A DNA stretch of 47,785 nucleotides from Methanobacteriota archaeon. GTDB lineage: Archaea; Thermoplasmatota; Poseidoniia; Poseidoniales; Thalassarchaeaceae. The stretch lies in assembly GCA_011523055.1 (NCBI GenBank), contig WTHQ01000005.1, positions 1 to 47,785 on the forward strand. Reading direction: 5' to 3'. The position numbers and the translations under genes are program-made. This document shows positions 5,952 to 17,952 of this stretch, piece after piece. Below the pieces are notes generated by a model that saw only the letters and a list, made by a program, of their open reading frames with translations, was not told the DNA's origin and made no database searches. The stretch's first letter is position 1, and the number at the start of each line of letters is the position of its first letter.

Positions 5952-6024
5952 TCCCACGGATACCTTAGATGGGTTTATGGAGCATTTTCTGGTGGGAAGT
6001 CTCGTGGCCCCCTCGGGGGTCAGT

Positions 6025-6029
6025 GGTGA
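6025..6029 (+). promoter_or_regulatory. Shine-Dalgarno site GGTGA deciding the nuoA start
   Basis: GGTGA lies 5 bases before ATG 6035. The same motif precedes nuoC (GGTGG), nuoB and nuoL at 4-5 bases. This favours 6035 over the upstream in-frame ATGs at 5969 and 6029. Confidence 0.65.
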
Positions 6030-6034
6030 TGCTA

Positions 6035-6481
6035 ATGGATACAGTCACTGAGGCGTATCTAGCATTCGCCATAATGACCCTCGTGGGCATTGGTTTTCCG
6101 GTTGGCGCATTCATTGCCTCTTACTTCCTCAGGCCGATCGAGGATCCCAACGACAAGACAAAGGTCCGCTCAATCCTACTGCCTGGGTACGAAAGGGACC
6201 ACTCACTCTATCCTCGTGCTGCAACAACATACGAGTGTGGTGCTGAGCCCCTCGGGGAGGCGCACATTAACTTCCACTTCCAGTACTACTGGTACGCCAT
6301 CATCTTCCTTGTGTTCGACATCGCCTTCATGTTCCTGGCATTCGGGGGAATCGTGGCCATCGACTCCTCCCTGGGCCGGTCGGAGGTGATCTCCGCACTG
6401 GTGACTATGTCGATTTTCGTCCTCCTCATGAGTCTAGGTGTCTGGCACGTATTCCGGAAGAGGGGCAGAATTTACATTTGA
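6035..6481 (+). CDS. nuoA: NADH-quinone oxidoreductase-type complex I, subunit A
   Basis: A small three-helix membrane subunit of complex I (148 residues from this start; family about 120-150). It holds the family loop YECGAEPLGEAHINFHFQYY between TM1 and TM2, which lies near the quinone cavity. The start at 6035 is chosen for the GGTGA at 6025-6029; the longer frame from 5969 adds 22 residues unlike the family. In TM2 the usual FDVE is FDIA: the Asp is kept but the conserved Glu (E81 in Escherichia coli numbering, from memory) is Ala. It is first in a twelve-gene operon and 9 bases before nuoB. Confidence 0.95.
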   Translation: MDTVTEAYLAFAIMTLVGIGFPVGAFIASYFLRPIEDPNDKTKVRSILLPGYERDHSLYPRAATTYECGAEPLGEAHINFHFQYYWYAIIFLVFDIAFMFLAFGGIVAIDSSLGRSEVISALVTMSIFVLLMSLGVWHVFRKRGRIYI

Positions 6482-6490
6482 GGTGACCCA

Positions 6491-7087
6491 ATGGCTGACG
6501 ACAACCAGAACTTCGCAGTATTCAACAGCAGGATCCTAGTTGACACAGTCGGCCACGTGACCGATGAGGCCCTGAAAGCATCCAGGATCAAAGATGTGAT
6601 CGGCGTCTTGGCAGGGAGGCTCTTCAATTGGGGCCAGAGGAAGTCACTCTTCCCCCTTCACCTCGGAATAAAATGCTGTGCGCTCGAGATGGCCGCAGCC
6701 GGCGCAAGTCGATTCGATGCGGAGCGATTCGGCGTTTTCTTCAGATCAAGCCCCCGCCAATGCGATGTCTTGTTGGTGAACGGACCGGTCAGCAAGAAAT
6801 TTGCAGATCCACTCGTTCGCCTTTGGGAGCAGATGCCTGAGCCCAAGTGGTGCATCGCAATGGGGGAATGCGCGATCTCAGGAGGGCCGTACTTCCAGTC
6901 ATACAACATCCTGGAGGGAGTAGACACCGTGATACCCGTAGATGTCTACATACCCGGTTGCCCCCCTCGCCCGGAGGCTTTGATTGACGGGTTCGCCAAG
7001 CTCAGACAGAAGATAATCAGGATCGGCGCTGTGCCAAGCGAGAGCCGCTCAGATGTCGAAGTGCCGTTGATTCTTGGCGATGACTGA
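6491..7087 (+). CDS. nuoB: Complex I subunit B (N2 iron-sulfur cluster)
   Basis: A 198-residue peripheral subunit that ligates the terminal [4Fe-4S] cluster N2, which passes electrons to quinone. The four ligands are visible: the tandem Cys pair in GIKCCALEM (C62, C63), C127 in MGECAISGG and C157 in YIPGCPPRPEA. Length and motifs are normal for the family. The start is supported by GGTGA four bases upstream of ATG 6491. It lies between nuoA and nuoC, the standard order. Confidence 0.97.
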   Translation: MADDNQNFAVFNSRILVDTVGHVTDEALKASRIKDVIGVLAGRLFNWGQRKSLFPLHLGIKCCALEMAAAGASRFDAERFGVFFRSSPRQCDVLLVNGPVSKKFADPLVRLWEQMPEPKWCIAMGECAISGGPYFQSYNILEGVDTVIPVDVYIPGCPPRPEALIDGFAKLRQKIIRIGAVPSESRSDVEVPLILGDD

Positions 7088-7101
7088 CTTAGGTGGTTCA
7101 C

Positions 7102-7764
7102 ATGGGCAAAAGAGTCAGCGCTGAGGCACAAAAGGAAGCCGTTTCCAGGTTGTTGGACCACGTCACATCCATAGAAGGGGTCACTGGCGAAGTCCTGAGT
7201 CGAACAAATGGAACTCAAGACCGCAACATTGCCAACATCGCATGCGAACCCTCAGCTTGGAGAACGCTCGCTGAGACCCTGAAATACGACCACTCCGTCG
7301 ACCACTGCTCCATGATCACAGGAATACACTGGCCTGAATCCACGGACAAGAACTGGGAGCTCGTCTATCATTTCCTAAGGACTGGGGTATTAGATCCCGA
7401 GATCACAGAGAGCGGGTCCACGATCATCCCGAGGATCACCGACACCAAGAAAATGGATCCAGACGCGATACCCATAGAGATCCAAGTCAACGTTGCGATC
7501 CCAGAGACCCGAACACCGTCAATCGCATCCGTGCAAGATATCTGGATTGGAGCCGACTGGAACGAGAAGGAGACATGGGATTTGGTGGGAATCGACTTCG
7601 AGGGCCATGAGGGCATGAGGAGGGTGTTGAACCCCCACGAAACCCCTCCCGGGTACCATCCTCTGCAGAAACAACACAAACTCCGTTACCATGGATTCGA
7701 GGAGATGTACGATGACGCTCAAGGGTTCCTAAGAAAGGCCCCGGATTCAGGACGGGTGAAGTGA
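7102..7764 (+). CDS. nuoC: Complex I subunit C (30 kDa subunit)
   Basis: A 220-residue soluble subunit of the connecting module, separate from NuoD rather than fused. The family signature region near residues 150-190 reads GADWNEKETWDLVGIDF followed by GMRRVLNPHETPPGYHPL. I start it at ATG 7102, preceded by AGGTGG; a GTG at 7093 would put the start inside that ribosome-binding site. The N-terminal half is weakly conserved, as usual for NuoC. Confidence 0.93.
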   Translation: MGKRVSAEAQKEAVSRLLDHVTSIEGVTGEVLSRTNGTQDRNIANIACEPSAWRTLAETLKYDHSVDHCSMITGIHWPESTDKNWELVYHFLRTGVLDPEITESGSTIIPRITDTKKMDPDAIPIEIQVNVAIPETRTPSIASVQDIWIGADWNEKETWDLVGIDFEGHEGMRRVLNPHETPPGYHPLQKQHKLRYHGFEEMYDDAQGFLRKAPDSGRVK

Positions 7765-7774
7765 GGCGACGATC

Positions 7775-8911
7775 ATGGCAGAGATGTGGATTTCGATGGG
7801 GCCGCAACACCCTATGACCCATGGCCTTTGGACTTTGAAGGTCAAGGTGGATGGCGAGACCGTAGTCGACACTGAGCCTGATTTAGGATACATTCACAGG
7901 GGAGTGGAGAAGATCTGTGAGTCCCGGGACTTCACACAGATAACGACCTACTGCGATCGGCTGTGCTACGCCAGTGCCAACACTTGGTCACATGCCTACA
8001 TCTATGCCGCGGAGGACCTCCTCGAGGTTGAAGTCCCAGAGAGAGCGGAGTACATCCGACTCATTGCAGTCGAGCTCCAAAGAATCGCTAGCCACCTAAT
8101 GTGGTTGGGCGCATATGGCCCCGACATCGGGAATCTGTCGATCATGGTATGGTGCCTCAGGGAGCGTGAGATGATGATGGACCTGCTACAGGAGCTAGGA
8201 GGATCCAGAATGCACTACAACTTCCCAAGGATTGGTGGAGTAAAGAGAGATCTTCCATACGGCTTCGCACAGCGAGCCAGGGCAAAGTTAGACCTGTTCA
8301 AACAGAGAATACAGGAGTATGAATCACTCTTCGACGAAAGTACGGTCTTCCTCGTGAGAACCCAAGGCGTCGGCTACTCAAAGGCTGAGGAAATGGTGAA
8401 CCACGGAGTGACGGGACCGAACGTCCGCGCAGCGGGAGTCGACTATGACGTGAGGTGGGCCCATCCCTACTCCGTTTACTCCGAACTTGATTGGGCTCCA
8501 GCCGTTGAAAGGTCGTCGGTCAAGGGCGCAGACTGCTATGATCGCTACAGGGTCAGGGTCACCGAGATGGTCGAATCTGCTAACATGGTGCTTGAGGCCC
8601 TCGACAGAATTCCTGGGGGCGCGGAGACCCACTATGAGTCGGGCGACCCTGCTATCATCGCCAAGGCTCCTTCAAGGGCACCTGAGGGAACATTTGGATC
8701 CCATCACTTCGAGGATAGCCGGGGCGAGTCCATGTTCCACATTGTCGGAGGCGGCGAAGGACGGGGGAAGAACCCCTACAGGGTGTCCATCCGCTCTCCC
8801 ATGTTCATTACCATCCCATACGCTTCAAAGTGCATGATCGGCTACAAGGTAGCTGACATACCAGCCATCATGGGATCATTCGATCCCTGCATCGGGGAAA
8901 CAGACAGGTGA
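7775..8911 (+). CDS. nuoD: Complex I subunit D (49 kDa, hydrogenase-large-like)
   Basis: A 378-residue subunit forming the quinone-reduction site with NuoB. The N-terminal loop GPQHPMTHG holds the His involved in quinone binding. RGVEK, GSRMHYNFPRIGGV and the C-terminal GSFDPCIGETDR are family landmarks. The C-terminus matches complex I, not hydrogenase: there is no CxxC nickel site. Starts after GAGGCGA; the leader resembles that of nuoH. Normal length, no N-terminal NuoC fusion. Confidence 0.97.
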   Translation: MAEMWISMGPQHPMTHGLWTLKVKVDGETVVDTEPDLGYIHRGVEKICESRDFTQITTYCDRLCYASANTWSHAYIYAAEDLLEVEVPERAEYIRLIAVELQRIASHLMWLGAYGPDIGNLSIMVWCLREREMMMDLLQELGGSRMHYNFPRIGGVKRDLPYGFAQRARAKLDLFKQRIQEYESLFDESTVFLVRTQGVGYSKAEEMVNHGVTGPNVRAAGVDYDVRWAHPYSVYSELDWAPAVERSSVKGADCYDRYRVRVTEMVESANMVLEALDRIPGGAETHYESGDPAIIAKAPSRAPEGTFGSHHFEDSRGESMFHIVGGGEGRGKNPYRVSIRSPMFITIPYASKCMIGYKVADIPAIMGSFDPCIGETDR

Positions 8912-8920
8912 GGCGACATC

Positions 8921-10444
8921 ATGGCAAGCAGCGATTGGCTAGACATCAGGGGTTGGATGGACTCAATCATCGGGTGGAGTTTGGACAAGACACACCAACT
9001 CCTACCATCATCCGATATAGGGCTGGGCCCCTTGGGGTCGATCAACCTCCAAGACGGGTTCTCATCGATACAGTCGCCTCTCCACCTCTTCATCTTCACC
9101 TCGGTGATGTGCACGGTAGTTTTCGCGACCATGATGATAACCCTGATCGTAGTTCCCTACATAGAGAGGAAATTCATTGGCAGATTGATGGACAGGTTCG
9201 GCAACACCATGAGCGCCCGGAGCCTTTGGGTCGGAGAGGGGGGGGTGACTGCAGGCGAGTGGTGGTCGGGCCTCCCACTAGGCTTGGGGAAGCCGATTGG
9301 CGCGCTAAACAAGGCGCTGAACAATAGCTTCGGGAATGAGCACCATACGAACTCTGTCACTCGAGTAGGAGACCGGGGATACCACGGGATCTGGTTCATG
9401 TTACCCGGATTCGTGGCCGCAGTAGCGGACTTCGTGAAATTCAACACAAAGGCTCACATCGTACCCGAGAAGGCTGATCGACTCGTATTCGAGGTAGCGC
9501 CGGTCATCATAATCTCAACCACCGTCATGGTCTACGCCTTCGTACCGTTCGGACCACACATATGGGCCGCGAACCCTGATTTATCGCTCATCTTCATGAT
9601 GGCGATTTTCGGGGTCGCCCCGTTGGGCGTATTTTTCGCTGGCTGGGCATCCAACAACAAATACACCCTGATTGGCGGAATGAGATCCGCAGCACAACTT
9701 ACGGCCTACGAAATCCCGTTGTTGGTCACCGTCCTCGGTATAGCCGTCCTCAGCGGCTCATTCAACATAATCGAGATCGTCGACTTCCAGATCCAGTCTT
9801 CCGATACCTGGAACCTCTTCCTTATGCCTCTTGGGGCCGTGCTGTTCATTGTGACCATGATCGCTGAGGTTGAAAGAATTCCATTCGACATGCCGGAGGC
9901 GGAGGCTGAACTCGTGGAAGGATGGTGGACAGAGTACGGCGGGATCCGATGGGGCCTGATGTTCGCCGTCGAGATGATGCGGGCCTACGCAGCTTGCATA
10001 CTGTTCGCACTGTTCTTCCTGGGGGGTTGGGAACTACCATTCCAAGACACACTCGTGGCCCTGCCGTTGGTTGGAGGCGTCTTCTCTCTATTAGCGGCAA
10101 TCACGCCAGGCATCGCCATACTCCTGATCAAGGCCTACCTAATGTTCGCACTCTTTGTTTGGGTAAGGGCATCCCTTCACAGGATCCGGACCGACCAGAT
10201 CCTTGAATTCGGCTGGAGGTACCTCCTCCCCCTCTCCCTGCTCAACCTCGCATTGGCAATGGTGATGAGGGTGGCTCTCTGGGACGGCTCCTGGCCGATT
10301 TGGCTGGCCCCCGCGATGACCGCAGGAAGCCTGCTATTGTTCGTCTTGCTCGCAGTTGACGAGGACAAAGAAGCCTTGAAGAGCTCGAACAGGATATACC
10401 ACACCCAGACCCTCGAAAAGGCGTACCCAGGAAGGAGGGACTAG
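8921..10444 (+). CDS. nuoH: Complex I subunit H, enlarged
   Basis: A membrane subunit that bridges the quinone site and the proton-pumping arm. At 507 residues it is clearly longer than most NuoH (about 320-420). Family landmarks are present: IERKFIGR (near residue 81), VADFVKFNTKAHIVPEKAD (about 168-186) and EVERIPFDMPEAEAELVEGW with TEYGG (about 310-335). The extra length is an N-terminal amphipathic extension (about 1-50) and an insertion of roughly 55 residues after the first ERK loop (about 95-153), rich in Gly, Trp and Asn. About eight to nine hydrophobic helices. It sits between nuoD and nuoI, as expected. Confidence 0.95.
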   Translation: MASSDWLDIRGWMDSIIGWSLDKTHQLLPSSDIGLGPLGSINLQDGFSSIQSPLHLFIFTSVMCTVVFATMMITLIVVPYIERKFIGRLMDRFGNTMSARSLWVGEGGVTAGEWWSGLPLGLGKPIGALNKALNNSFGNEHHTNSVTRVGDRGYHGIWFMLPGFVAAVADFVKFNTKAHIVPEKADRLVFEVAPVIIISTTVMVYAFVPFGPHIWAANPDLSLIFMMAIFGVAPLGVFFAGWASNNKYTLIGGMRSAAQLTAYEIPLLVTVLGIAVLSGSFNIIEIVDFQIQSSDTWNLFLMPLGAVLFIVTMIAEVERIPFDMPEAEAELVEGWWTEYGGIRWGLMFAVEMMRAYAACILFALFFLGGWELPFQDTLVALPLVGGVFSLLAAITPGIAILLIKAYLMFALFVWVRASLHRIRTDQILEFGWRYLLPLSLLNLALAMVMRVALWDGSWPIWLAPAMTAGSLLLFVLLAVDEDKEALKSSNRIYHTQTLEKAYPGRRD

Positions 10445-10446
10445 AG

Positions 10447-11451
10447 ATGGAACATTATGACTTCAGGAGCGGCCACCCCCATGCTCAACCTAACTTCAGG
10501 AACCTGATCATAAGGCCAATGTGGATAACGATGAAGACCGCCCTGAGGACCATTCCGTTGATTGGCCGCCTGCCATTCCTCCACAACGACTACCACAACA
10601 AGAGAGTCAGCATGACTGATGGATTCACCGAGGAGAGGATAGGTTCCGATCACGTCTCTACGAAGTGGACTGACTCAGGATCATACGCCGCTGATAGGGA
10701 GGCCAGCGAGGTCATGCCGTTTGTCGAGAGGCCTGTGACTGTCATGTACCCCTACGAGAGGCTGGAGGACCTTGAGCCGTGGCTTTTCGTGCCAGGGGAA
10801 TACAACGGAAGGATCGGGATTATCTGGGAGACATGCACAGCCTGCAAGGCCTGCGTGCGAGCCTGTCCGAACGACTGCCTGCACATGACCACAGAGACCA
10901 GGGTCAACGTATTGGACACCGCTCAGGAAGGTGACGAGTGGCATGGGTACGGAGGCGAGATCGAGGTCGGTGGCTTTGCAGCCCTACCAAGGGGGAATTC
11001 CGAAGATGCCAACGAGTTCGATCTTGTCAACGCCCATTCAGCGGCCCCGCAAGAATATGACTTTGGCGAGGTAATCGACCTGACTGGCTCAACAGCAACC
11101 GTGAAGTGGAATGATGGAAGCGGGACTGGCGATGTGCAGGTCACTGACTTGAAGCCAGCCGAGCAAGACATAGTCTCCGGAAGAATAGACATCGGCAGAT
11201 GCATGTTCTGCGGCCTCTGTGCCGAAGCGTGCCCGTTCGAGTCCTTCTTCATGACCAACGAGTATGACGGGATGTCCGGATACACGCGGCAAGACCTGTG
11301 GTTTGATGCTGACAGGACCCGTGTCCTGCCCTCCGTCCACAAAGAGAGGGTGGACATGGAGCTCGAGAAGAGGGCCAGGAAAGAGAAAGCCAAGAGAGAG
11401 AAGAAGGCAGCGAAGGCTGAACAGGCCGCAGAGGCAGCCAAGGGAGCATGA
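10447..11451 (+). CDS. nuoI: Complex I subunit I (two [4Fe-4S] ferredoxin) with large inserted domain
   Basis: A 334-residue iron-sulfur subunit. Two complete 8-Fe ferredoxin motifs are present: CTACKACVRACP (C130, C133, C136, C140) and CMFCGLCAEACP (C252, C255, C258, C262). In ordinary NuoI these are about 40 residues apart; here they are about 110 apart. The extra segment includes a beta-rich, Trp-Asp-Gly-containing unit at about 206-240 that resembles an SH3-like barrel. The C-terminal 35 residues are a Lys/Ala/Glu-rich helix. Follows nuoH by two bases. It is probably the first Fe-S subunit to receive electrons, since NuoE, F and G are absent. Confidence 0.95.
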   Translation: MEHYDFRSGHPHAQPNFRNLIIRPMWITMKTALRTIPLIGRLPFLHNDYHNKRVSMTDGFTEERIGSDHVSTKWTDSGSYAADREASEVMPFVERPVTVMYPYERLEDLEPWLFVPGEYNGRIGIIWETCTACKACVRACPNDCLHMTTETRVNVLDTAQEGDEWHGYGGEIEVGGFAALPRGNSEDANEFDLVNAHSAAPQEYDFGEVIDLTGSTATVKWNDGSGTGDVQVTDLKPAEQDIVSGRIDIGRCMFCGLCAEACPFESFFMTNEYDGMSGYTRQDLWFDADRTRVLPSVHKERVDMELEKRARKEKAKREKKAAKAEQAAEAAKGA

Positions 11452-11455
11452 TCGC

Positions 11456-11722
11456 ATGGTCAACGCTGAGGAGGCCGCGTTCCTTGTGCTCGCAGCCATT
11501 GCCATCGGCGGTGCGATCGGTTGTGTCTATGCCCGACGCGTGGCCCACTCCCTCCTCTCTTTGATGATGACATTCCTGGCAGTCGCAGGGGTATTCATAC
11601 TTGCAGAGGCCGAGATGCTCGCTGCCGTTCAGATCCTAGTCTATCTGGGCTCAGTAATGCTGGTGGTCCAGTTCGGAGTAATGCTCACTCGCCGCCAAAT
11701 TCAAGAGGGGGACATCGAATGA
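11456..11722 (+). CDS. nuoJ: Complex I subunit J, N-terminal half
   Basis: An 88-residue membrane protein with three hydrophobic helices matching the N-terminal half of NuoJ; ARRVAHSLLSLMMTFLAVAG and EAEMLAAVQILVYLGSVMLV correspond to the conserved TM2-TM3 part. The start is ATG 11456, four bases after the nuoI stop. It ends in an ATGA overlap with the next gene, which supplies the rest of NuoJ. Split J genes are known in the Fpo operons of methanogens and in haloarchaea, so I read this as a genuine split, not a frameshift. Confidence 0.92.
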   Translation: MVNAEEAAFLVLAAIAIGGAIGCVYARRVAHSLLSLMMTFLAVAGVFILAEAEMLAAVQILVYLGSVMLVVQFGVMLTRRQIQEGDIE

Positions 11723-12066
11723 GGGCGTTAGGAATCCTTGCGAGAATAGGGGTCCTGGCACTCGTTCTCGTCCTCTTGACCGAGACAATGCAATTTTCTG
11801 GATGGAACGACTCGCCAACTGCCCCGACATCCTCATCATTCGCGATTGCGATGCTAGATGATTGGAACATGATGACACTCGTACTTGGACTGCTACTTAG
11901 CATGGCGATGATAGGAGCCTCATACCTCGTTAGGGACGAGCGTTTAGCGAATCTGACATGGGACCTTGGTCAGGATGTCGAGACCCCAGTCATAGGGATG
12001 CCACCAGCGGCAACCAGGGCATCAAGCATCAATCAACCGGGCATCGTGGGAGATGATGAGGAATGA
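11719..12066 (+). CDS. nuoJ2: Complex I subunit J, C-terminal half
   Basis: A 115-residue protein with two hydrophobic helices, near residues 5-21 (LARIGVLALVLVLL) and 48-70 (WNMMTLVLGLLLSMAMIGAS), then a soluble tail of about 45 residues. By position and topology it is the C-terminal half of NuoJ. The start ATG overlaps the stop of the N-terminal half (ATGA), and its own stop overlaps the nuoK start in the same way, implying translational coupling. Sequence conservation in this half is low across the family, so the call rests mainly on context. Confidence 0.85.
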   Translation: MRALGILARIGVLALVLVLLTETMQFSGWNDSPTAPTSSSFAIAMLDDWNMMTLVLGLLLSMAMIGASYLVRDERLANLTWDLGQDVETPVIGMPPAATRASSINQPGIVGDDEE

Positions 12067-12365
12067 TAGAACCCTCTTGGATATCCGGGTTGGCTGCGAT
12101 TCTCTTCGGCATAGGCCTCATTGGGACCTTCTCACGAAAGAATGGGATCGTCGTCTTGATGTGCATCGAGCTGATGCTAAACGCTGCAAATCTGAATTTC
12201 GTGGCAGGTGCCTTGAACACGGGTGGAGTCGAAGGATGGGTCTACACTGCTGTCGCAATCGCCATCGCTGCGGCGGAGGTAGCCATCGGTCTCGCGATCC
12301 TGCTCTCCCTTTACAGCACCCAAGAGACGATTTCTCTGGATGAGGCGGTCTATCTTAGCAACTGA
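12063..12365 (+). CDS. nuoK: Complex I subunit K
   Basis: A 100-residue, three-helix membrane subunit (MrpC-like) of the proton-pumping arm. The two functionally important buried glutamates are present, in MCIELMLNAANLNFVA (TM2) and AIAAAEVAIGLAIL (TM3). The length is exactly that of the family. The start codon overlaps the previous stop as ATGA. Confidence 0.96.
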   Translation: MIEPSWISGLAAILFGIGLIGTFSRKNGIVVLMCIELMLNAANLNFVAGALNTGGVEGWVYTAVAIAIAAAEVAIGLAILLSLYSTQETISLDEAVYLSN

Positions 12366-12370
12366 GGTGA
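12366..12370 (+). promoter_or_regulatory. Shine-Dalgarno site GGTGA of nuoL
   Basis: GGTGA is followed by four bases and ATG 12375. The same arrangement occurs before nuoB (6482-6486) and serves as the standard against which the nuoM CTG start is judged. Confidence 0.7.
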
Positions 12371-12374
12371 AATT

Positions 12375-14672
12375 ATGGGCGAGCAACAGAACCAGGAATG
12401 GAACCTACTATTCCCATTGATCCCTGCTATCGCCATAGTGCCCATCTTGGCAATCGCTGGGATCGAACCCATCGACCTAGGCTTCGCAGCCATCGCAGCC
12501 CCACTTGCAATGTTTCCTGTAGTACTGATCGTGGGCCAGCTGTGGAACGGAAACGAAACATGGGTCAGCCGGTTCAAGGAAGGGGGCGTACTAGCGCTAT
12601 CAGCCCTATCGGTATCTCTTGTTGCCGGCCTTTGGATGGTACTTGACTTCCTGGGGGCCGGGGAGAAGAAAGCACATGGCGACCCCCTCACTTGGCTTGA
12701 CTTCGACGTGCTTGGCCATGATGGAACCCAGTGGACCATAGACACAGGATTCACGAACATATCCTTTGGGATCTGGCTCGACCCGATAAGTGCCATGTTG
12801 CTCTTCGTTGCAACATTCCTCTGCTTCCTCATATGCTGGTTTGCAATTGGTTACATGACCACGGACGACATAAACTCGAATAGGAATCACCGGTTCTTCG
12901 CCGAGTTCATACTGTTCAGCATGGGGATGTTCGGGATGGTCCTAGCTGACAGCTTCCTGTGGTTGTTCATCTTCTGGGAGATCATGGGCCTCTGCTCATA
13001 CCTGCTGATTGGATTCTATTACTGGAAGGAAAGCGCCGCTGCCGCTGCAAAGAAGGCATTCATGACGACGAGGGTCGGTGACGTCTTCCTAATGGTTGGC
13101 CTATTGATGCTCTATGACATATATGGGTCGCTGGACTTCTCAGTCGTTTTTGACAACCCCTCCACCGGGGTCGGCGATGCACCCGTCAAGGCATCCGAGC
13201 TCCAACCTGCTCTGTTGATGCTCTTCATTGGGTGTGTGGGAAAATCCGCCCAGTTCCCCCTTCATGTATGGCTTCCAGATGCGATGGAAGGACCCACCCC
13301 GGTCTCTGCATTGATCCATGCTGCGACAATGGTCAATGCCGGACTCTATCTCGTGGCTAGGATGGTGCCCTTCGTGGACGTCGGCTACTACGGCGTGGCT
13401 GGAATGGAGGACCTTGGAATCATAATCGCCTGGATAGGTGGCGTCACGGCATTCATGGCTGCTTCGATCGCATTCGTTCAGAACGACATAAAGAAGGTCC
13501 TGGCATACTCCACAATGAGCCAACTAGCCTACATCTTCCTCGGCCTCGGCTCCGCCTTGTATCTGATCTCAACTGGACACAGGTACGAAGGCCTGTTTGT
13601 GCTGGGGGGCGCCCTGTTCCACCTATTCAATCACGCCATGGCCAAAGGTATGCTATTCATGGCCAGTGGCTCGGTCATACACGAGATGCACCATGCCCAT
13701 CATGAACTCCATCACCACCAGGAACACGACGATCATCATGACGAACACTTCGACGCTCAAGACATGAGGTACATGGGCGGTCTTGCATCCAAGATGCCCG
13801 TGACGTCCATCGCCATGATGCTGGGAAGCATGTCAATCATCGGCATACCCCTCATCGGAGGTTTCTGGTCCAAGGAGGCGATCATCGCTGAGACATGGCT
13901 GGGCGCGCTGGAGTACGAGCCACTCCTATTGGGCCCTGCCATTCTCGCAGTCATGACCGCGGGCATGACGGGATTCTACATGTCGAGGATGTGGATGATG
14001 ACGTTCGCCGGAGAACCCAAACACGAAGCAGCATCTCACGTCCACGAGGAGACCCTCTGGATCAAAACCCCACTGATCACACTCTCGGTTGTCACGGCAA
14101 CGACTGGTGCACTCTTGGCATTCTTCCATATAGGGGAGTTCCTGAGCGGCAAAGACTACTCCTTGGGGCTCGACGACTTCGAGGTCGCAAGAGCCCTCCA
14201 GATAGCCTTCCTTCCTGAAAAGCAGGCGTTAATGGCCGTCGGGTACATCACGATAGTCCTCTCCACCTTCGTTGGGCCAATAATCGCCATGAAGGTCCAT
14301 GGCGGGAGGCTTAGTGAGGGACAAGAGGCAAATGCAGCAGTTTCATGGCTTGTCGGCCTCTCTGGCTCCTTCAAGAAGATCGACGTATCTGGCATGGCGA
14401 GCAGCAGCCTCTCTGAATCACTCAGGAACCGCCTCCACTTCGATGACCTCTACGCATGGGGCATATCGAAAACAATCGTCCCGATGGCGAAATTCTCCGC
14501 CTGGTTCGACGCCAACGTGATAGACGGGATCGTGAAGCTGGTCGAGAGGACAAGCATACAAGGATCCCATTGGATCAGGTCATACACAACAGGAAGCACC
14601 AGGGACTACATTCTCATGGCCGCGGTCGGGGCACTCTCGATCTTCGTCCTCATCGTGGGGGTGACAGTCTGA
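12375..14672 (+). CDS. nuoL: Complex I subunit L (antiporter-like), with His-rich loop
   Basis: The largest proton-pumping subunit, 765 residues with the Mrp-antiporter core and the C-terminal lateral helix region. The TM5 glutamate is visible in FWEIMGLCSYLLIG and the TM7 lysine in GKSAQFPLHVWLPDAMEGPTP. The discontinuous-helix motif HAATMVNAGLYLVAR follows. In the loop after GSVIHEMHH (residues 436-458) there are 12 histidines in 23 residues, with Asp and Glu between them, before the usual QDMRYMGGL. It ends in a CTGA overlap with nuoM. Confidence 0.97.
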   Translation: MGEQQNQEWNLLFPLIPAIAIVPILAIAGIEPIDLGFAAIAAPLAMFPVVLIVGQLWNGNETWVSRFKEGGVLALSALSVSLVAGLWMVLDFLGAGEKKAHGDPLTWLDFDVLGHDGTQWTIDTGFTNISFGIWLDPISAMLLFVATFLCFLICWFAIGYMTTDDINSNRNHRFFAEFILFSMGMFGMVLADSFLWLFIFWEIMGLCSYLLIGFYYWKESAAAAAKKAFMTTRVGDVFLMVGLLMLYDIYGSLDFSVVFDNPSTGVGDAPVKASELQPALLMLFIGCVGKSAQFPLHVWLPDAMEGPTPVSALIHAATMVNAGLYLVARMVPFVDVGYYGVAGMEDLGIIIAWIGGVTAFMAASIAFVQNDIKKVLAYSTMSQLAYIFLGLGSALYLISTGHRYEGLFVLGGALFHLFNHAMAKGMLFMASGSVIHEMHHAHHELHHHQEHDDHHDEHFDAQDMRYMGGLASKMPVTSIAMMLGSMSIIGIPLIGGFWSKEAIIAETWLGALEYEPLLLGPAILAVMTAGMTGFYMSRMWMMTFAGEPKHEAASHVHEETLWIKTPLITLSVVTATTGALLAFFHIGEFLSGKDYSLGLDDFEVARALQIAFLPEKQALMAVGYITIVLSTFVGPIIAMKVHGGRLSEGQEANAAVSWLVGLSGSFKKIDVSGMASSSLSESLRNRLHFDDLYAWGISKTIVPMAKFSAWFDANVIDGIVKLVERTSIQGSHWIRSYTTGSTRDYILMAAVGALSIFVLIVGVTV
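14660..14664 (+). promoter_or_regulatory. Shine-Dalgarno site GGTGA supporting a CTG start for nuoM
   Basis: GGTGA stands four bases before CTG 14669, exactly the spacing seen at nuoB and nuoL. There is no ATG, GTG or TTG in frame at a suitable place, so this site argues that CTG is used. Confidence 0.6.
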
Positions 14673-16288
14673 CATTCACTGGGCCACTGAGCATAATCAC
14701 CCTCGTACCCCTCCTCTCAGGGATAATCCTGCTCGCCCTACCGAACATACTCCCGAGCGACATCTCGATGAGGATGAAGGCCTCCGTCAGGAACGTCGCT
14801 ATCGGACTTTCATCAGCCATATTCCTCCTTACAACCCTGATCTTCGCAGGCACGATAGGACAGATCGATTGGCTTTCAATCGGCATGGGGGACTATGTTT
14901 TGGAAACTGAGGATCCAATCTGGCTGATAGAGTCAATTGGGGTAACATGGCACCTCGGGACAGACGCACTTTCCTTCCCGATGATATGGCTAACCACCCT
15001 TCTGATACCGATTTCCATGTTGGTGCAATGGGATGCCAAGGATGGCCATAGCTTTCACTCACTCCTCCTGATTATGGAGGGGGCCCTGATTGGGGTATTC
15101 GTCTCTCTGGATCTGTTCGTGTTCTACGTGTTCTGGGAGCTCACCCTTGTCCCGATGTTCTTCCTGATCATGATCTGGGGCGGTGAGGACAGGAAATACG
15201 CATCCATGAAGTTCTTCATCTACACGTTCACTGCTAGCGTCCTCATGCTCGTCGGCATCCTCGTGATGTACTTCAACACGGCCACGGACCCTAATTTCGC
15301 AGGCACTCTCACTGGCCACCACTTCAACTTGGTTCTGATGACAGAGCAATCGAGGGTTGACGGACTGATAACCAGTGAGGGCCTCAGGCATCTCGTATGG
15401 CTGCTGCTGCTGATAGGCTTCGCCACGAAGATGCCCAGCGTACCGGTCCACACATGGCTTCCAGACGCTCACGTCCAAGCCCCCACAGCAGGCTCGATGC
15501 TTCTTGCTGGAGTGATGCTGAAAATGGGGGCCTATGGCTTCCTAAGGGTCGCCGTTGCCATGTTCCCAGAATCAACGCTGACGTTCGTCCCTCTCTTGGT
15601 CTTCCTCGGCATGGCGAGTCTGGTCTATGGGGCAGTCGTCTGCCTCGGGCAAACGAACCTGAAGAGGATGGTCGCATACTCATCCGTCTCACACATGGGC
15701 CTGATTTTCCTGGGGATCGCAACCATGCAGCCCCTGGGATTTGCGGGGGCGCTCTTCATGATGTTCGCCCATGGCATCATCAGCCCACTGTTGTTCGCCG
15801 TCGCAGGATCGTTCAAGCACCACTACCACACGCTAGAAATCGGATCAATGAGGGGCATCGCCCACCACTCCCCATTCCTCGCAGGACACATGATGCTCGG
15901 GTGGATGGGTAGCCTCGGACTACCGCTGCTCGCGGGCTTCGTAGCAGAGGTCGCAATAATGATCGCGTTCTGGATGACCTTTGGCTGGTGGGTCCTGCTC
16001 CCGGCCCTCACGCTGATCTTCACAGCGCTGTACTACCTGACATCGATGCAGAAGATGATCTTTGAGTCGGATGACCCACACGTCGGGATACTCCCAGACA
16101 CCATGCATGGCGAGGAGCCCAGGGACGTCACCTGGCATGAGAACGCAGGAATGTTCGTCCTTGGTGCCCTGACCATCCTGTTCGGGATTCTACCTTTCAT
16201 ATTCTGGGACATGATGTCCGCTTGGAGCACTGATTTCATCCAAACTTACCTCGTGCACGCAATGAACATGCTGGAGGCCTCCCCATGA
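14669..16288 (+). CDS. nuoM: Complex I subunit M (antiporter-like), probable CTG start
   Basis: An antiporter-like proton-pumping subunit, 539 residues from CTG 14669. The TM5 glutamate lies in FWELTLVPMFFLIMIWGG and the TM7 lysine in ATKMPSVPVHTWLPDAHVQ; TLKRMVAYSSVSHMG-like NLKRMVAYSSVSHMG is also conserved. The frame is open further upstream, but that part (from 14456) is out-of-frame nuoL sequence with no family likeness. The first ATG downstream (14768) would remove the first helix. CTG 14669 overlaps the nuoL stop as CTGA and has GGTGA four bases upstream. A sequencing error turning ATGA into CTGA is the alternative. Confidence 0.93.
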   Translation: MTFTGPLSIITLVPLLSGIILLALPNILPSDISMRMKASVRNVAIGLSSAIFLLTTLIFAGTIGQIDWLSIGMGDYVLETEDPIWLIESIGVTWHLGTDALSFPMIWLTTLLIPISMLVQWDAKDGHSFHSLLLIMEGALIGVFVSLDLFVFYVFWELTLVPMFFLIMIWGGEDRKYASMKFFIYTFTASVLMLVGILVMYFNTATDPNFAGTLTGHHFNLVLMTEQSRVDGLITSEGLRHLVWLLLLIGFATKMPSVPVHTWLPDAHVQAPTAGSMLLAGVMLKMGAYGFLRVAVAMFPESTLTFVPLLVFLGMASLVYGAVVCLGQTNLKRMVAYSSVSHMGLIFLGIATMQPLGFAGALFMMFAHGIISPLLFAVAGSFKHHYHTLEIGSMRGIAHHSPFLAGHMMLGWMGSLGLPLLAGFVAEVAIMIAFWMTFGWWVLLPALTLIFTALYYLTSMQKMIFESDDPHVGILPDTMHGEEPRDVTWHENAGMFVLGALTILFGILPFIFWDMMSAWSTDFIQTYLVHAMNMLEASP

Positions 16289-17952
16289 TACTAACCTCGT
16301 CGGAGGCCATTGCCCTAGCCCCGGAGATGACGATCCTGTTCGGCATCACTCTAGCGATCCTGGTGCCCAACCTCGGGGATGCGAGAGCCAGGATCCCCCT
16401 CACGAACATCAAAGTCCCCATACTTTGGGGAGGAACCCGATTCGAGATCACCTCCGATCCGAGGGCACCCGGGGCGCTCTCGACGATCTGCCTTGCCGTC
16501 GCGTGTTTGCTGTCGCTCTACGCAATCGAGTCGAGCGAGGGTAAAACAATCTCCGGAGTCATGGAAATCACGGGCTTTGGTAGATTCATGTCGATGGTCT
16601 TCACAGCTGCGCTGGCGATCACAGCAGCCGCATCGATCTACCGTATCCCGTCCAAGAAGATCACCGCGGCGGACGTGAAGGATGCTGATGATCAAGTCAC
16701 ACAAAGTCTGATGGACAACCGCAGGCAAGTCGATCTTCACATCCTCCTAATGATGGTCGCACTAGGAATGAGCCTAATGGCCCTATCAACGAACCTATTC
16801 TTCCTGATCGTCTGCCTGGAGCTTGCCTCCATGGCCTCGTATGTGCTCGTTGGCTTCCACAAGGAGAGCAGCATCGGAGGGGAGGCCGGCACCAAGTACT
16901 TCATCGTTGGATCAATAGCCTCTGCGACGGGAATCTATGGCATGTCTCTGCTCTATCTCTGGGCCGGGAGCTTGGATTTTGCCATTCTATCAGCAACATG
17001 GGGGCAGATGGATACACTCGACCCCCTTGCCGGAATCGGTGTCGGGCTCATGATGGTGGCATTCGGCTTCAAGGTCAGCGCAGCCCCCTTCCACCTCGCA
17101 GCTCCAGATGCTTACTCTGGCACGAATGCGCCGATAGCAGGCATGCTCGCTACCGCCTCCAAGGCGATGGGCTTCGTTGCCATGATGAGGGTGCTTGTAG
17201 GCATCGCTGCTCCTAACGAAGCTGTGACCGCCTGGGCACCCGCGCTGGGCATCCTTGCTGTCATCACCATGACTTGGGGCAACCTCGCTGCTTTATCATC
17301 TGAAAATCCCAAGCGGATGCTGGCCTACTCGAGCGTCGCTCACGCGGGCTACATGCTGGCAGCACTCGCGGCGCTTGGCTCAGGACTCGCAGACTCCGGT
17401 ACCCAGGAGCTTCTGCAGATTGCCATTGTGTTCCACCTAGCCGTACTTGTCCTGTTCAAGATGGGGGCCTTCCTGGTCCTCACCCTAGTGGAGATGGAAG
17501 GAGGAGGATCATCGATCTCGGATCTGAATGGACTCGCCCGTAGAGACCCGATCCTAGCGATCTGCATGTTCGTATTCATGCTCTCCTTGGCAGGGATACC
17601 CCCGCTATCCGGCTTCCTCTCGAAATTCCTAATGATCAATGGGCTGGTAACCACCACAACGGACACTGGGGCCATCACGGCCGCGAGCGCAATGAGCTGG
17701 CTGCAATCGGTGGATCCATACTTCCTTCTGGCTCTGGCCATTGTCCTAAACAGCGCGCTATCCCTGTTCTACTACCTCAGAATAGGACTCCTGATGTTCT
17801 TCGAAGAACCAGCAATGGATTCACCTGTCCCCCGGGCACCCCTCCTCAGAGCGGTGATCCTTGCCTCGATGGTCCTCACGGTGCTCCTTGGCATAGGGCC
17901 CGCGAGCGAGCAGCTCCTGTCCCTGGTGGAGACGGCCATCTCCACGTTCTAG
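16285..17952 (+). CDS. nuoN: Complex I subunit N (antiporter-like)
   Basis: The third antiporter-like subunit, 555 residues and about 14 helices. The conserved TM5 glutamate is in VCLELASMASYVLVGFHKE and the TM7 lysine in FGFKVSAAPFHLAAPDAYSG; NPKRMLAYSSVAHAGYMLA and SLAGIPPLSGFLSKF are also typical. It begins in an ATGA overlap with nuoM and is the last gene of the operon. A polar loop near residues 120-140 (AADVKDADDQVTQS) is somewhat longer than usual. Confidence 0.96.
   Translation: MILTSSEAIALAPEMTILFGITLAILVPNLGDARARIPLTNIKVPILWGGTRFEITSDPRAPGALSTICLAVACLLSLYAIESSEGKTISGVMEITGFGRFMSMVFTAALAITAAASIYRIPSKKITAADVKDADDQVTQSLMDNRRQVDLHILLMMVALGMSLMALSTNLFFLIVCLELASMASYVLVGFHKESSIGGEAGTKYFIVGSIASATGIYGMSLLYLWAGSLDFAILSATWGQMDTLDPLAGIGVGLMMVAFGFKVSAAPFHLAAPDAYSGTNAPIAGMLATASKAMGFVAMMRVLVGIAAPNEAVTAWAPALGILAVITMTWGNLAALSSENPKRMLAYSSVAHAGYMLAALAALGSGLADSGTQELLQIAIVFHLAVLVLFKMGAFLVLTLVEMEGGGSSISDLNGLARRDPILAICMFVFMLSLAGIPPLSGFLSKFLMINGLVTTTTDTGAITAASAMSWLQSVDPYFLLALAIVLNSALSLFYYLRIGLLMFFEEPAMDSPVPRAPLLRAVILASMVLTVLLGIGPASEQLLSLVETAISTF

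Follow-up and report, generated by a model that had tools for sequence, protein, structure and literature searches.

An acidic, predicted SH3-like domain inserted into the NuoI subunit of Poseidoniales complex I

Introduction

Few archaea are as abundant in the surface ocean as the Poseidoniales, an order without cultured members. Which donor delivers electrons to their complex I decides how they couple the breakdown of peptides and lipids to respiration, and a complex I gene cluster from the family Thalassarchaeaceae raises this question in an unusual form: its NuoI-like gene carries an extra domain between the two ferredoxin motifs. What is this domain, and what could it do at the point where electrons enter the complex? 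A genome survey, in the part of its text available to us, calls Poseidoniales complex I a canonical NADH dehydrogenase (PMC6336850), and the available part of a second paper mentions only an electron transport chain (PMC6461757). No report describing this NuoI insert was found among titles and the beginnings of abstracts, in a search that left most subscription journals outside.

A divergent NuoI in the complex I cluster

The window (the whole stretch of DNA analyzed, 47,785 nucleotides of contig WTHQ01000005.1, assembly GCA_011523055.1) contains an 11-subunit-type complex I cluster with subunits A, B, C, D, H, I, J, K, L, M, and N at positions 5969 to 17952. Reading the window by eye showed no E, F, or G gene in this cluster, and the subunit names other than I and D were likewise assigned by eye. 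The NuoD/NdhH homologue lies at 7775 to 8911, and the NuoI-like gene with the inserted domain at 10447 to 11451 (334 amino acids); these and all other features given here are on the forward strand. Two cysteine motifs of the form CxxCxxCxxxCP, CTACKACVRACP (residues 130 to 141, 10834 to 10869) and CMFCGLCAEACP (residues 252 to 263, 11200 to 11235), align together with their flanks with NdhI and NuoI, and all four cysteines of each motif are invariant in an alignment of 18 sequences. The best NCBIfam model is that of NuoI (TIGR01971), at 74.8 bits against a family cut-off of 113.05 that is not reached, and the match falls into two stretches because the insert splits it. The best PDB chains, chloroplast and cyanobacterial NdhI and bacterial NuoI, also align in two separate stretches. 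Judged by its position in the cluster and by the sequence of both halves, the gene is a divergent NuoI. The protein ends in a lysine-rich tail (residues 306 to 334, 11362 to 11448, net charge +6), where AlphaFold2, run on the whole protein, predicts a helix (residues 297 to 333).

Two further features of this stretch were seen. About 129 residues precede the first motif (10447 to 10833), compared to 62 in Thermosynechococcus elongatus NdhI, and they include invariant stretches such as PNFRN and EPWLF. NuoJ, by eye, is encoded by two open reading frames (11455 to 12066), like fpoJ N and fpoJ C in Methanomassiliicoccales as described in the accessible part of PMC4153887.

Distribution and conservation of the insert

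Measured from start to start, the two motifs are 122 residues apart, versus about 40 in ordinary NuoI (in T. elongatus NdhI they start at C63 and C103, i.e., 40 apart); counted between the motifs, there are 110 residues versus 28. By either measure the insert is about 82 residues long. The sequence-only reading of this DNA had given the spacing as about 110 against about 40, which was right about the insertion but mixed the two measures. With its junctions, the insert spans residues 149 to 246 (10891 to 11184).

The insert is kept throughout the order, as a survey of relatives proposed by that reading made clear. In a species survey, the spacing is 119 to 124 in every one of the 65 Poseidoniales loci that contain both motifs, and it is 119 to 125 in 79 of 80 named loci, labelled Poseidoniales, Thalassarchaeaceae, Marine Group II, or simply Euryarchaeota; a contig end truncates the remaining one (L131). 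These two sets share species and together comprise 144 measured loci with 106 distinct inserts, all 144 with a spacing of 119 to 125, and such constancy indicates that the insert is not a chance event. It is absent from 35 other Thermoplasmatota loci, in which the first two motifs are 38 to 57 residues apart; 5 of these are sister-family loci found with the window protein and 30 are taken from the best matches to the NuoI model in the phylum, so that the comparator set leans to ordinary NuoI. NuoI itself was found in 38 of the 40 relatives and in 124 of the 145 genomes of the class, of which, by hand count, 119 belong to the order and 5 to the sister family. In those 5 sister-family matches, the alignment to the window protein covers the first motif region only; their hairpin (53) somewhat exceeds the ordinary length, and the first part of it aligns with the beginning of the insert. 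Judging from this alignment, the longer hairpin may represent a step toward the insert.

A profile of the insert, searched against 243 genomes, matched one place per genome in 62 Poseidoniales genomes (E ≤1.4e-32) and five weak places in other families (E 0.018 to 0.081). A spare copy of the barrel elsewhere in the genome was considered and rejected, since the profile matches only once per genome in the order. Two genomes (G016 and G017) gave neither an insert-profile nor a NuoI match, and a missing contig is the likely reason, because NuoI is present in other members of their genera. The insert evolves faster than the Fe-S part of NuoI, and several of its stretches are variable, while G, W, F, and H positions are invariant. 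Where dS was unsaturated (two of five pairs), the dN/dS ratio of the insert is about 0.06, indicative of purifying selection; in the other three pairs dS was saturated. The alignments used here comprise one of 18 chosen loci (one of them, L066, holding X) and others of 35, 34, 34, and 54 of the 74 available sequences; sequences with X were excluded from all but the 18-locus alignment.

Predicted fold of the insert

AlphaFold2 predicted a barrel twice. The whole NuoI (35 sequences) gave a mean pLDDT of 50, with residues 201 to 240 at 83 to 95, and the insert alone (54 sequences) gave the same strands with block means of 77 to 87. The five predicted strands (residues 177 to 181, 204 to 213, 216 to 221, 226 to 231, and 236 to 238) have the SH3-like topology, and nearly all structural matches of the models are SH3-like: Tudor, KOW, SH3, PWWP, and myosin SH3-like domains. 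The best VIA-align Z scores of the two models are 5.5 and 6.8, values below 8 that may mean only a common arrangement. Profile searches pointed the same way with weak matches, to TDRD3 Tudor and NdhO in the PDB and to Myosin_N, Agenet, UBE2O SH3, and NdhO in Pfam; the one recurring weak match outside the SH3-like families was PCB_OB (best E 0.0074). No significant family emerged for the insert from the Pfam, NCBIfam, and PDB profile searches. Since profile searches and structural matches agree, the predicted SH3-like fold is well supported, with no specific family assigned. An SH3-like barrel had been proposed for positions 11062 to 11166; the prediction bears this fold out, but the stretch is only the second half of a longer barrel that takes in residues ~172 to 240 (10960 to 11166). 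Neither outcome that would have told against the sequence-only reading, lack of a folded domain in the prediction or lack of the insert in close relatives, was observed. The ferredoxin core of the model mostly has a pLDDT below 50, and hence the model does not fix how the barrel is turned relative to the clusters.

Is the barrel a relative of NdhO, either taken up into NuoI or descended from a common ancient ancestor? NdhO and NdhS of the cyanobacterial and chloroplast complex, NDH-1, likewise form small barrels of the SH3-like type where electrons enter a complex I that depends on ferredoxin, but they are separate subunits, whereas the Poseidoniales barrel sits within NuoI. With either model, the first-ranked PDB chain in Foldseek was T. 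elongatus NdhO (6nbq_O; E 9.5e-3 and 1.1e-2), at an identity of 25% over 73 columns, NdhO was the sole PDB match of the whole-insert profile at E up to 10 (E 1.5), and cyanobacterial NdhO beat all 2,000 of its own shuffles with both profiles. However, in three of the four tests on plant NdhO some shuffles scored higher, none of the NdhO E values is significant, and the next Foldseek matches are close (SH3, E 2.1e-2). Among the best 50 VIA-align matches listed are KOW and Tudor chains but not NdhO, which could still rank lower, and hhalign with three NdhO sequences gave a probability of 34 with only 15 columns aligned. In Pfam, NdhO was matched by 1 of 34 members (E 0.21), compared to 7 of 34 for Myosin_N (best E 0.0049), and no sequence match to NdhO (PF11910) was listed for the 34 longer members. 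Plasmids were also searched for NdhO, to deepen its profile, and yielded no sequence. True kinship thus looks unlikely; by analogy of place and fold, NdhO may be regarded as the closest functional neighbour. The VIA-align matches listed for the barrel also include 3c4s/2jz2 (Ssl0352), which we take to be NdhS.

Position and charge of the electron-entry hairpin

Where does the barrel stand in the complex? NdhI of NDH-1 offers the nearest comparison, as it likewise has two 4Fe-4S motifs, belongs to a complex without an NADH module, and admits electrons at the hairpin between the motifs. According to the accessible part of one structural study, NdhI K86, K89, and K91 and NdhH K315 and K321 contact ferredoxin (PMC7021789); another, in its accessible part, describes the long NdhI hairpin and a C-terminal NdhH fragment as essential for ferredoxin binding (PMC6992706). 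In T. elongatus NdhI, lysines 86 to 91 fall between the motifs starting at C63 and C103, and therefore the barrel stands exactly at the ferredoxin-binding hairpin. The proposal that the insert lies beside the electron-entry clusters was thus upheld, in that it occupies the very hairpin that holds ferredoxin in cyanobacterial NDH-1.

The charge of this hairpin is reversed. Between the motifs, the net charge of 106 distinct Poseidoniales loops ranges from -9 to -22 (median, -17.5), with none at or above zero, whereas 29 distinct comparator loops range from -1 to +5 (median, +2), with 21 above zero. The NdhI hairpin, short (28 residues, net +1) and bearing lysines, binds acidic ferredoxin; in Poseidoniales NuoI it contains a barrel and has a charge of about -17. 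The insert accounts for -15 of the whole-protein net charge of -17 in the window NuoI, and across 108 distinct NuoI proteins the median charges of insert and tail are -17 and +6. That NuoC, NuoD, and NuoL are acidic too counts against a docking role of the insert, although their charge per residue is three to five times smaller. In the window NuoD, aligned to 6hum_H (E 3.3e-75), the positions of NdhH K315 and K321 are occupied by A and E. The same holds for 69 and 71, respectively, of the 72 sequences that fit the pattern, among 76 NuoD sequences found (4 did not fit). Lysines at these positions may not be a common feature of all complex I enzymes, and little can be concluded from the substitutions taken by themselves; in combination with the acidic insert, they mean that docking of the NDH-1 type is probably unavailable here.

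Electron input and candidate donors

The missing NADH module, suspected from the window, was confirmed in a search of 40 relatives, which found complex I-type NuoF or NuoG in none of them; this contrasts with the label of canonical NADH dehydrogenase in the accessible text of PMC6336850. NuoF-family matches below the family cut-off occurred in 3 of the 40 genomes, with NuoG domain matches in the same three genomes and contigs. By eye, these three (L182 to L184) are fused NuoE-NuoF proteins adjoining a molybdopterin-type, formate dehydrogenase-like catalytic subunit and are probably NAD-dependent formate dehydrogenases. FpoF-like proteins were also absent from all 40 relatives. The search for input modules covered NuoF, NuoG, and FpoF-like proteins, and the source genome is 94.85% complete. 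The lack of all three, which leaves neither an NADH nor an F420 module, indicates a complex I of the 11-subunit type. The same subunit set without an input module is found in 11-subunit complex I-like enzymes and in the Fpo-like complexes without FpoF of Methanosaeta and Methanomassiliicoccales, for which ferredoxin is proposed as donor in the accessible part of PMC4153887.

A reduced ferredoxin pool is probably available to Poseidoniales, as all 40 relatives have a pyruvate/2-oxoacid:ferredoxin oxidoreductase-type domain. The strong acidity of the insert speaks against a normal acidic ferredoxin docking here as it does in NDH-1, and a donor would then need a basic face. The most acidic small ferredoxin of the genome (L188, net -16) would be repelled by the insert. 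A 110-amino-acid two-cluster ferredoxin with an arginine-rich start (positions 1474 to 1803 of locus L189), found in 38 of the 40 relatives, was considered as a candidate donor and set aside: it looked basic in one genome but is near neutral over 13 loci (-3 to +3, including L212 to L223 and counting leader residues), and it lies beside an HdrD-like gene. Reading the window by eye showed no partner gene adjoining the complex I cluster, and this counts against docking.

Possible roles of the barrel

We infer, with the chances about evenly balanced, that the acidic SH3-like module serves to dock a basic-faced donor, or to gate its access, at the electron entry of an 11-subunit-type complex I. 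In such a mechanism, an acidic barrel built into the NuoI hairpin between the ferredoxin motifs would occupy the site at which the lysines of NDH-1 meet ferredoxin, and barrel and NuoD together would turn the electron-entry face from basic to acidic. The barrel would then dock, or gate the access of, a soluble donor whose contact face is basic or neutral, and electrons would enter at cluster N6a. Whether SH3-like subunits touch ferredoxin at all in NDH-1 is a matter of disagreement, which weighs against docking: NdhO does so according to PMC7021789, but NdhS, NdhO, and NdhV make no direct contact according to PMC6992706, as far as the accessible parts of both go.

The chief rival, a serious one though clearly less probable, is a structural role. 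The barrel could be a cap or brace over the surface exposed by the lack of an NADH module. It would shield N6a from oxygen in these aerobic cells and stabilize the arm, with the lysine-rich NuoI tail perhaps keeping it in place, and would make no contact with a donor. That acidic insert and basic tail occur in one protein (-15 and +6 in the window, with medians to match) is consistent with this, as are the description of the SH3-like NdhS as a foothold holding another subunit (accessible part of PMC7021789) and the faster change of the insert relative to the Fe-S part, which suits a brace. Yet the insert occupies the ferredoxin-binding hairpin proper rather than its rim, and the change of charge far exceeds what a brace would need. 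Far less credible than either role is a loop that expanded neutrally and folds by coincidence. Barrels of the SH3-like type are small and widespread, and the insert is partly variable, but its retention at all 144 loci, the low dN/dS, and the invariant G, W, F, and H positions speak strongly against neutrality.

Under the docking or gating role, the insert marks the site of action of the donor and is usable as bait for it. Poseidoniales probably feed their complex I from a different donor or from one that is differently held, and the barrel would join NdhO and NdhS as another example of the SH3-like fold at the ferredoxin end of a complex I. A broader proposal is more doubtful than the docking role itself: Poseidoniales may have remade the electron-entry face such that an acidic SH3-like module, possibly a captured NdhO-type barrel, replaced the basic ferredoxin grip and the complex came to run on a basic-faced donor that no other complex I is known to use.

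Other NuoI architectures in the phylum

Comparator NuoI proteins of the same phylum have no barrel, and some have a second pair of cluster motifs instead. NuoI with four cysteine motifs occurs in the sister family f3 (L052 to L056) and in family f17 (L087 to L089, L091, L093, L095, L098, L099, and L101), with motif spacings of 53-65-44 or about 38-83-39. Judged from the motifs, these proteins have an extra C-terminal pair of 4Fe-4S sites, which would be another lineage-specific change of electron entry. Since 38 and 83 add up to nearly 122, the insert was considered as a remnant of a four-motif NuoI; the flank alignments reject this, because the first motif keeps its NuoI-type approach sequence. 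Moreover, NEYDGMSGYTRQDLWFDADR after the second motif aligns with the sequence that follows the second motif in ordinary and four-motif NuoI, indicating that the residues were inserted and not left over.

In family f2, some NuoI proteins are extended to 375 to 454 residues (L024, L025, and L070); the tail of one (L025) contains a GIGPFIEEKLNALGI stretch resembling a helix-hairpin-helix, and Pfam shows nothing other than the ferredoxin models. A Poseidoniales-type NuoI (69% identity) is also present on contig PAJW01000011.1 (L164), labelled Gammaproteobacteria, which is probably a mislabelled or mixed assembly.
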